A DNA stretch of 64,000 nt, taken from positions 434,001 to 498,000 of the forward strand of contig NZ_BCQA01000001.1 in NCBI RefSeq assembly GCF_001748145.1, given 5' to 3'. The notes below the pieces were generated by a model, which saw only the letters and a list, made by a program, of their open reading frames with translations, searched no databases and was not told the origin of the DNA. Origin of the DNA: Bosea sp. BIWAKO-01 (GTDB lineage: Bacteria; Pseudomonadota; Alphaproteobacteria; Rhizobiales; Beijerinckiaceae). The position numbers were made by a program, and so were the translations under genes. Below, piece after piece: positions 20,496 to 32,093 of this stretch (within the stretch, counting starts at the first letter, position 1; each line of letters begins with the position of its first letter).

Positions 20496-20586
20496 TGGCG
20501 GAGACGGAGGGATTCGAACCCTCGATACCCTTGTGGGGTATGCTCATTTAGCAAACGAGTGCCTTCAGCCTCTCGGCCACGTCTCC
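20496..20586 (-). tRNA. tRNA-Ser(GCT)
   Basis: The 91-nt gene has acceptor stem GGAGACG/CGTCTCC with G discriminator and encoded CCA. The anticodon loop is TTTGCTAAA (anticodon GCT, codons AGC/AGU). It has the long variable arm of class II tRNAs (CATACCCCACAAGGGTATC), and the TTCGAAT T-loop is intact. Confidence 0.96.
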
Positions 20587-22213: not shown

Positions 22214-22265
22214 ATGTTCCCGAAAATGGGAGCGTTAGAGCAGTCGCTCCCAATTATGGGAACAT
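22214..22265. promoter_or_regulatory. Double palindromic operator in front of higB-like gene
   Basis: Two 21-bp arms that are inverse copies (18 of 21 matching) flank a 10-bp spacer. Each arm is itself a palindrome of the form TCCC-N6-GGGA (GTTCCCGAAAATGGGAGC and GCTCCCAATTATGGGAAC). Tandem operators of this kind are normal for autoregulated toxin-antitoxin operons. The HigA-type domain encoded just downstream is the natural candidate binder. The site also sits 42 bp from the divergent phosphodiesterase start. Confidence 0.75.
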
Positions 22266-22280
22266 TATGATCGCAGCGGC

Positions 22281-22562
22281 ATGATCGTCATCGGAGCCTC
22301 GGCCCTGGTCGACTATGGCGAGGCGCACCCGCAGGCTGGCCCTGGCCTGCGCGCGCTGAACGCGCTGCTGCGACAGGCGTCCTGGGGGACGCGCGGCGAG
22401 CTTGCGCGCGATTGCGGCGCGGTTGCTCGCTTCGTGAGCGAAGACGCGGTTGCGCTTGCCTTGCCGCATGTTGGCTGCAGCGTGACGTTCAGGGTCAATT
22501 TCGAGTTGGGCGTGATCCGCATCACCGCGGTCGCCGCCCTCAACGAGGAGGACGCAACGTGA
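22281..22562 (+). CDS. HigB-like protein, probably catalytically degenerate
   Basis: The 93-residue product aligns by pattern with the HigB RNase-toxin family: an N-terminal helix around YGEAHPQAGPGLRALNALL, the tryptophan in ASWGTRGEL, and beta strands ending FELGVIRITAV. Canonical HigB proteins of this type carry a GGNKYRLV-like strand and a GTH..YD C-terminus. Here the equivalent stretch reads HVGCSVTFRVN and the C-terminus is AALNEEDAT, so core RNA-binding and catalytic residues seem lost. It overlaps the next gene by 4 bp (GTGA) and is co-translated with it. I infer a partner or modulator role rather than an active toxin. Family assignment is by eye. Confidence 0.7.
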   Translation: MIVIGASALVDYGEAHPQAGPGLRALNALLRQASWGTRGELARDCGAVARFVSEDAVALALPHVGCSVTFRVNFELGVIRITAVAALNEEDAT

Positions 22563-23704
22563 CGGAGCGCCAAGGCCTTCCGGTCCGGCCGATCAAGAGC
22601 GAAGCAGATCATCACGCCGCGCTGGCCGAGATCGACCGGCTGTTTGCCGCGGAGCCGGGCTCCGAGGCAGCCGACCGGCTCGAGGTTCTTTGCCTGCTGG
22701 TCGCCGATTACGAACGCAGGACCCATCAGATCGCTTCGACGGACCCCATCGCCTATCTGACCCTCGCGATGCAGGCGACGGGGCGGACACAAGCCGAGCT
22801 CGCCGAGCTACTCGGCTCGCGCTCGCGCGCCTCAGAGGTCCTGAACCGGCGGCGGCATCTCTCCGCCGAGATGATCGCAAAGCTCAGCGAAGCCTGGGGC
22901 GTGGCGCGCGAGCCGCTTTCGGCGCCGTATGCGGTGGCGGGCAGCGTCAAGCGCACCGCGCTGCGCGGCGCCGCCCTGCTCGGCCTCCTCGCGAGCCTCA
23001 GCCTGTCGGCGATCGGCGGTCTGTTCTGGGCGCACGGCAGGGACCTGCCGAGCACGGCCGAGATCGCACGCTATGCGCCGCCCGATCTCGAGCGCTACGG
23101 CCGGGACGGCGGCCTGACGGCGTATCGCCGGCCGGTGCCGCTCTCGACCATCCCGCCCCATGTGCTGAAGGCCTTCCTCGCGGCGGAGGACCAGGACTAC
23201 TACCGCCATGGCGGCTACAGCGTGCCGGCGATCCTGCGGGCCGCAGCCCAGAACCTCGCGAGCCTGGGCGAGAGCCGGACTCCGGCAGGCGCCGCCACCA
23301 TTACCCAGCAGCTCGCCAAGAACCTGCTGCTGCCTGGCCAGCCGCCCTCGCTCGCCCGCAAGGTGAAGGAGATCGTGCTGGCCAGCCGGATCGAGGACGC
23401 CCTGAGCAAGGACCGGATCCTCGAACTCTACCTCAACCAGATCTATTTCGGCGGCTACGCCTATGGCATCGCGGCGGCCTCGGCCCAGTATTTCGGCAAG
23501 AGCCCGGCCGATCTCGGCGTTGCGGAAGCCGCCTATCTCGCGGCCCTGCCGAAGGCGCCGAACACCTACCGGCTCGACATCGCCGACAACCGCGGACGCG
23601 CCAAGGAGCGGCGCGACTGGGTGCTCCGACGCATGGCCGATGACGGACTGATCACGGCCTCCGCCGCTCAGTTCGCCCAGGCCGAGCCATTGGTCGGCCC
23701 TTGA
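22559..23704 (+). CDS. HigA-type HTH antitoxin domain fused through a TM helix to GT51 peptidoglycan glycosyltransferase
   Basis: This 381-residue fusion joins two families normally encoded separately. Residues 10-125 match HigA antitoxins of the COG5499 type (IKSEADHHAALAEIDRLF; helix-turn-helix 72-105, GRTQAELAELLGSRSRASEV). Residues 134-156 form one membrane helix. Residues 165-345 form a GT51 transglycosylase with all signature motifs: AAEDQDYYRHGG (catalytic Glu210), GAATITQQLAKNL, RKVKEIVLASRIEDALSK (Glu271) and NQIYFGGYAYGIAAASAQYF. No transpeptidase domain follows. The GTG start lies 7 nt after AGGAGG. Topology predicts a cytoplasmic DNA-binding head and a periplasmic lipid II polymerase. 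I see no frameshift at the junction, so the fusion looks genuine. Confidence 0.9.
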   Translation: MTERQGLPVRPIKSEADHHAALAEIDRLFAAEPGSEAADRLEVLCLLVADYERRTHQIASTDPIAYLTLAMQATGRTQAELAELLGSRSRASEVLNRRRHLSAEMIAKLSEAWGVAREPLSAPYAVAGSVKRTALRGAALLGLLASLSLSAIGGLFWAHGRDLPSTAEIARYAPPDLERYGRDGGLTAYRRPVPLSTIPPHVLKAFLAAEDQDYYRHGGYSVPAILRAAAQNLASLGESRTPAGAATITQQLAKNLLLPGQPPSLARKVKEIVLASRIEDALSKDRILELYLNQIYFGGYAYGIAAASAQYFGKSPADLGVAEAAYLAALPKAPNTYRLDIADNRGRAKERRDWVLRRMADDGLITASAAQFAQAEPLVGP

Positions 23705-32017: not shown

Positions 32018-32093
32018 GGGGGCGTAGCTCAATGGTTAGAGCCGGCCGCTCATAACGGTCTGGTTGCAGGTTCAAGTCCTGCCGCCCCCACCA
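32018..32093 (+). tRNA. tRNA with CAT anticodon (Met or Ile2), phage-type
   Basis: All four arms fold: acceptor GGGGGCG/CGCCCCC with A discriminator and encoded CCA, and an anticodon stem around CTCATAA. The T-arm is GCAGG-TTCAAGT-CCTGC. Whether it serves Met or lysidine-modified Ile codons cannot be settled by eye. It lies inside the island, so it is a mobile-element tRNA and could itself be an attachment target. Confidence 0.85.

Follow-up and report, generated by a model that had tools for sequence, protein, structure and literature searches.

A conserved HigA–GT51 fusion encoded beside a HigB-fold protein in Bosea sp. BIWAKO-01

We analyzed a 64,000-nucleotide stretch of the genome of Bosea sp. 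BIWAKO-01 (contig NZ_BCQA01000001.1, positions 434,001 to 498,000), hereafter the window, which encodes a two-gene operon. Gene A encodes a protein with the predicted fold of the toxin HigB, and gene B encodes an in-frame fusion of a HigA-type helix-turn-helix (HTH) domain, a membrane helix, and a GT51 glycosyltransferase domain (Table 1). This fusion had been described in the original prediction, made from the DNA letters; the observation is confirmed, and the fusion is conserved. Judged by its sequence, the operon is a real, conserved, and, as far as searched, unreported variant with two molecular signatures: a toxin fold without the toxin motif and a palindrome with a 6-bp spacer (N6). With moderate confidence, we favor the explanation that a higBA toxin–antitoxin operon was rebuilt as a wall-synthesis module, in which B represses its own operon and A gates B.

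The single uninterrupted frame of 381 codons, its 4-bp overlap with the HigB-like gene, and the order and coordinates of the domains of gene B were all as originally described. The HigA-type domain was recognized by Pfam (HTH_3, residues 72–115, E 3.3e-6) and by PADLOC, whose sole match to B (residues 9–120) was to the N-terminal part of PD-Lambda-2_B (1.2e-28); the NCBIfam match to HigA was below the cut-off (18.5 bits vs. 47.7). When the PDB was searched with a profile of this domain, the HigA structures 5YCL/5IFG were recovered (E 2e-5). The one membrane helix was borne out by a hydrophobic core at residues 138–156, lying within a modeled helix (residues 127–160), and a strong membrane helix with its positive side facing the HigA side was present in 83/83 scorable fusions of the 86 compared. 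The GT51 domain matched Pfam Transgly (residues 188–359, E 1.6e-55) and carried the conserved motif residues, judged by what we take to be the GT51 motif list. Glu210 and Glu271, presumably the catalytic residues, were conserved in 84/86 and 82/86 fusions, respectively, the window's own included. The GT51 domain was the part of the protein under the strongest purifying selection. Its closest PDB relative was PBP1A of A. aeolicus; the genome also encodes a PBP1A-like protein to which residues 153–378 of B were 46% identical, and membrane regions of large GT51 proteins were matched by the linker portion of the search model. Judging from these last two matches, a PBP1A-type ancestor was probably joined to the HigA domain at a point immediately preceding its membrane helix; no transpeptidase domain follows GT51.

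Conservation of the fusion and of its neighbor across genomes, which the original prediction had raised as a question, was found in both cases. A search with residues 1–175 of B yielded 105 proteins, of which 85 aligned over both the HigA-type domain and GT51, making 86 fusions once that of the window is added. Four were short (277–310 aa), and one was without the GSR motif. Conservation was counted on these 86 fusions, which replaced a 79-protein set that had kept only AED-bearing proteins and so favored E210. One of them, a Bosea sp. protein (P0003), was 90% identical to the product of gene B, with equal length and start. A frameshift or an assembly or sequencing artefact at the junction is ruled out by the 86 homologous fusions. 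Gene A stood beside the fusion in 13/13 distinct loci, which rules out a chance pairing and supports the view that the two genes belong together. In the other 20 proteins, the same HigA-type domain was joined to HigB (PF09907), PF06114, or other parts: HigB and this domain shared a single chain in P0085–P0093 and P0096, so that fusion of the pair takes different forms, and in P0101 the domain was joined to a PF09557 region.

In a tree of 111 HigA domains, rooted for drawing only, 25/25 fusions fell to the same side of a single branch (100/98). Within the fusion clade, Bosea grouped with Filomicrobium; Microvirga, assigned by kinship to the family of Bosea, grouped weakly with a gammaproteobacterial bin. 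These groupings suggest that the fusion was transferred between lineages. Counting matches that extend across the linker, among the 8 to 11 best candidates of each genome, the fusion was found in 6/397 genomes of the order, 5/298 of the family, and 1/385 of the class (at E<=1e-20), the last being the genome itself. The 36 other genomes of the genus gave no best match reaching the HTH; a 92% identical locus (L028) and Bosea proteins exist elsewhere. Carriage by viruses and by plasmids was rejected: none of the 10 viral-contig relatives was a fusion by the motif test, and of the 401 plasmid records that matched, not one had a place covering 80% of residues 1–175.

The designation of gene A as HigB-like held for its modeled fold, that of PF09907-type toxins, but not for its sequence: the PF09907 profile found nothing in the whole genome, gene A included, and the GTHxxYD motif was gone. 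The PADLOC model PD-Lambda-2_A matched the A proteins of 11/13 loci at E<=0.1. The motif was present in 0/13 A proteins of fusion loci, the conserved Arg of GNxxR in 3/13, and a basic charge in 2/13. Motif residues and charge thus rule out an ordinary HigB toxin, and a link to mRNA cleavage is unsupported. At 77 unfused HigA loci, counted without motif selection, the full motif was found in 62, a part of it in 4, and none in 11; the 63 comparison HigBs (57 distinct, from 130 scanned loci) had been chosen by a TH.[DEQ]YD-like motif. HigB may be missing, displaced, or changed at the 11 loci without the motif in the upstream stretch searched (L038, L045, L056, L057, L072, L096, L101, L116, L118, L150, L171).

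The original prediction had overlooked a tandem palindrome at 22215–22264. Palindromes of the TGTTCCC-N6-GGGAACA type, with 12–14 of 14 arm bases, were found upstream of gene A in 13/13 distinct fusion loci. As in HigBA, a conserved, putatively operator-forming palindrome precedes the toxin gene, but with N6 instead of N5. The same arms were spaced by N5 in 63 of the 64 unfused loci reaching 11 of 14 arm bases (77 examined) and in 6/7 peptidase-fusion loci (10 examined), the 13/77 and 3/10 loci without a palindrome of that score being omitted. Ties occurred at L121, where N9 equalled N6 though the core reads N5, and at the peptidase locus L192, where N6 equalled N5. The change from 5 to 6 bp accompanies the fusion. 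The HTH stretch GSRSRASEVL was unchanged, and therefore the palindrome arms fit. At up to one mismatch, the 7.3 Mb genome contained four sites: two in the operon's own promoter, and a further two whose cores were unlike. A search with the pattern reversed gave no site. Because two of so few sites lie in the own promoter, they point to autoregulation by B. A scan for sigma-70 promoters upstream of gene A gave no plus-strand match.

The same count bears on the proposal that B is a one-component membrane regulator. The layout stood, a membrane-bound HTH joined to a wall enzyme, with the topology of ToxR or CadC (N-in HTH, one helix, outer domain). The broad ToxR-like role did not: a sensor that signals the state of lipid II or stress on the wall to a large set of genes is very improbable given only four genomic sites, although weaker or differently spaced targets were outside the scan. 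A global regulator was rejected on finding just two convincing sites in the genome.

Since the HTH residues and the upstream palindrome are both kept, B is best read as a protein that binds DNA from the membrane and bears a wall-synthesis enzyme. Clearly unlikely is the notion of a scaffold in which the HTH docks a protein instead of DNA and thereby localizes the glycosyltransferase. Its model is RodZ, according to PMC6946637 a bitopic membrane protein whose XRE-type HTH binds MreB, not DNA. B resembles RodZ in having such an HTH, one membrane helix, an outer part, and a tie to wall synthesis; however, its outer part is an enzyme, and its HTH is of the HigA type, with a palindrome before the operon. 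Retention of the HTH residues R88, R90, E93, and R99 in 85/86 fusions (one gap), together with the palindrome in 13/13 loci, would be unexpected if DNA binding had been lost.

In the rebuilt wall-synthesis module that we favor, a higBA operon would have been converted, apparently once, by in-frame fusion of its antitoxin gene to the membrane helix and GT51 that make up the N-terminal part of a PBP1A-type enzyme. B would reside in the inner membrane, its HigA domain facing the cytoplasm and the glycosyltransferase lying outside. A dimer of HigA domains would bind the pair of N6 palindromes before gene A and repress its own operon, keeping the polymerase at a low amount; in E. coli K-12, HigA and HigBA autoregulate via palindromes, according to PMC11980606. 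As B is membrane-bound, repression would require the promoter of the operon to be brought to the membrane, and the amount of enzyme would thereby be under inherent feedback. Protein A, with the HigB fold and no toxin motif, may contact the HigA domain in the manner of HigB in solved complexes and would gate B, either by adjusting repression or by restraining the enzyme. Sequence and models establish the architecture, its conservation, the palindrome with its spacing, the missing motif, purifying selection, and the fold of A; binding to DNA, autorepression, contact of A with B, and polymerase activity are inferred.

Several observations weigh against this explanation. The sequence similarity of A to HigB was weak (best PDB E 0.07), and the assignment is carried by the fold. 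Loss of the GTH motif is not unique to fusions, as the 11 of 77 unfused loci demonstrate, some of which may have no HigB in range. Gln replaced E210 in P0081 and P0083 and E271 in four members of the 86, so some fusion lineages may be enzymatically inactive; the E210Q pair possibly forms an inactive sub-branch with the architecture retained. Because the fusion loci form one clade, the 13 loci are not independent, and the spacing change may be a single event on one branch. The operator is proposed from conservation, and for the window taken by itself, a count of two sites with no more than two mismatches was not unusual (1.1 expected; 33/100 shuffles reached 2).

We hold only tentatively the alternative that the operon is a role-reversed toxin–antitoxin or anti-phage module, in which the unchecked GT51 of B is harmful, through glycan without cross-links and depletion of lipid II; A would serve as the antidote until B is released by a trigger. 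The precedent is PD-lambda-2, described in PMC9519451 with a HigB-like A, a HigA–peptidase fusion B, and a third gene C, where the fusion alone is toxic and is rescued by the HigB-like protein. By the same logic, A could act as a check on the glycan polymerase B. The Bosea operon is alike in gene order, in the HigB fold of its first component, and in an N-terminal HigA domain within a larger effector; PADLOC models of this system match A and the HigA part of B, and the patchy spread in the order agrees with such a role. In contrast, the Bosea effector consists of GT51 and a membrane helix, not a peptidase, A is without GTHxxYD, and the palindrome is N6, not N5. No third gene of at least 88 codons was clearly common within 6 kb in nine contexts, shorter genes lying outside the comparison. 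None of the 7 neighboring open reading frames matched PADLOC or a Pfam defense family (3 matched nothing in Pfam), no viral relative was a fusion, and GT51 is under purifying selection as in a housekeeping enzyme. At peptidase-fusion loci, moreover, HigB kept the full motif in 6/10 and a part in 2.

Among the 15 HTH–peptidase stretches (L180–L194), the partner was parsed in 11; the HigB-like proteins of L188 and L194, upstream of PD-lambda-2-like fusions, were also without GTHxxYD, and those of L187 and L192 kept a part. Inactive HigB partners may thus have arisen there as well. We also hold only tentatively a specific form of role reversal. Here a peptidoglycan polymerase, facing outward from the membrane, would be the part that kills or gates growth, and at the inner face this very molecule would repress its gene. 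Occupancy of the wall-synthesis site could thereby feed back directly to the promoter, and a dead toxin would be the controlling subunit. The 5-to-6 bp change would then reflect a new dimer geometry from membrane anchoring, or insulation from ordinary HigA.

E. coli K-12-type HigBA (PF09907 toxin; 5IFG, 6KML, 6KMQ) resembles the operon in gene order, both folds, the HigA-type HTH antitoxin, and the palindrome half-sites, which are as in unfused loci; COG5499 is the label that the original prediction gave to its HigA. The fusion operon differs in the lost toxin motif, in an antitoxin that is a membrane enzyme, and in a palindrome spacing 1 bp longer. PBP1A and monofunctional GT51 transglycosylases share the membrane helix and GT51 motif residues with B, but B is without the transpeptidase domain of PBP1A, and the HigA domain replaces the short N-terminal tail. 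No HigA–GT51 fusion was reported in the literature as far as searched, most subscription journals being outside that search. Xre–peptidase fusions are covered in Makarova 2009 (PMC2701414). PMC12419801 was rejected as HigA–transglycosylase literature; its 'HigA' matches are an author's name.

If true, the favored explanation would mean that a repressor that binds DNA is directly and physically linked to a polymerase of peptidoglycan, and that a toxin fold has been retained for a non-toxic role. HigA–effector fusions would then include a wall enzyme as well as the PD-lambda-2 peptidase. Because the spacing differs by one base, it would allow a clean examination of the way in which half-site distance is read by an antitoxin dimer.

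Table 1. Features of the operon, in window coordinates.
Feature	Position	Strand	Remarks
Palindrome O1, TGTTCCC-N6-GGGAGCG, putative operator	22215..22234	.	Like palindrome in 13/13 distinct fusion loci
Palindrome O2, CGCTCCC-N6-GGGAACA, putative operator	22245..22264	.	Starts 30 bp beyond O1; ends 16 bp upstream of gene A start
Gene A, 93-aa predicted HigB-fold protein without the HigB GTHxxYD motif	22281..22562	+	PADLOC PD-Lambda-2_A, E 5.5e-4
GTGA overlap, gene A stop/gene B start	22559..22562	+	4 bp
Gene B, 381-aa fusion of HigA domain, membrane helix, and GT51	22559..23704	+	GTG start at 22559, stop ending 23704
HigA-type domain with GSRSRASEVLNRRR stretch, ~residues 9–125 of B	22583..22933	+	Pfam, PADLOC, and PDB profile matches
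Membrane helix core, residues 138–156 of B, N-in by charge	22970..23026	+	Hydrophobicity and structure model
GT51 domain, residues 188–359 of B	23120..23635	+	E210 codon 23186–23188; E271 codon 23369–23371

The operon was neighbored by a GDPD gene, a PilZ gene, a metallophosphoesterase, and a LysR-type gene. Across the nine contexts (up to 6 kb on each side, frames of at least 88 codons), unrelated ones clearly had only A and B in common; the exception was L029:852-1865, weakly similar (27–28%) to a single frame in the flank of the window and to another in L030. More was shared by syntenic loci, namely the window with L028 and the three Microvirga loci. In an empty-site comparison of 8 loci, the flanking gene had other neighbors within 1.5 kb. 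A tRNA-Ser(gct) gene was located at 20496–20586 of the window on the minus strand, ~1.7 kb upstream of the operon, and two further tRNAs were found at 32018 and 48071.
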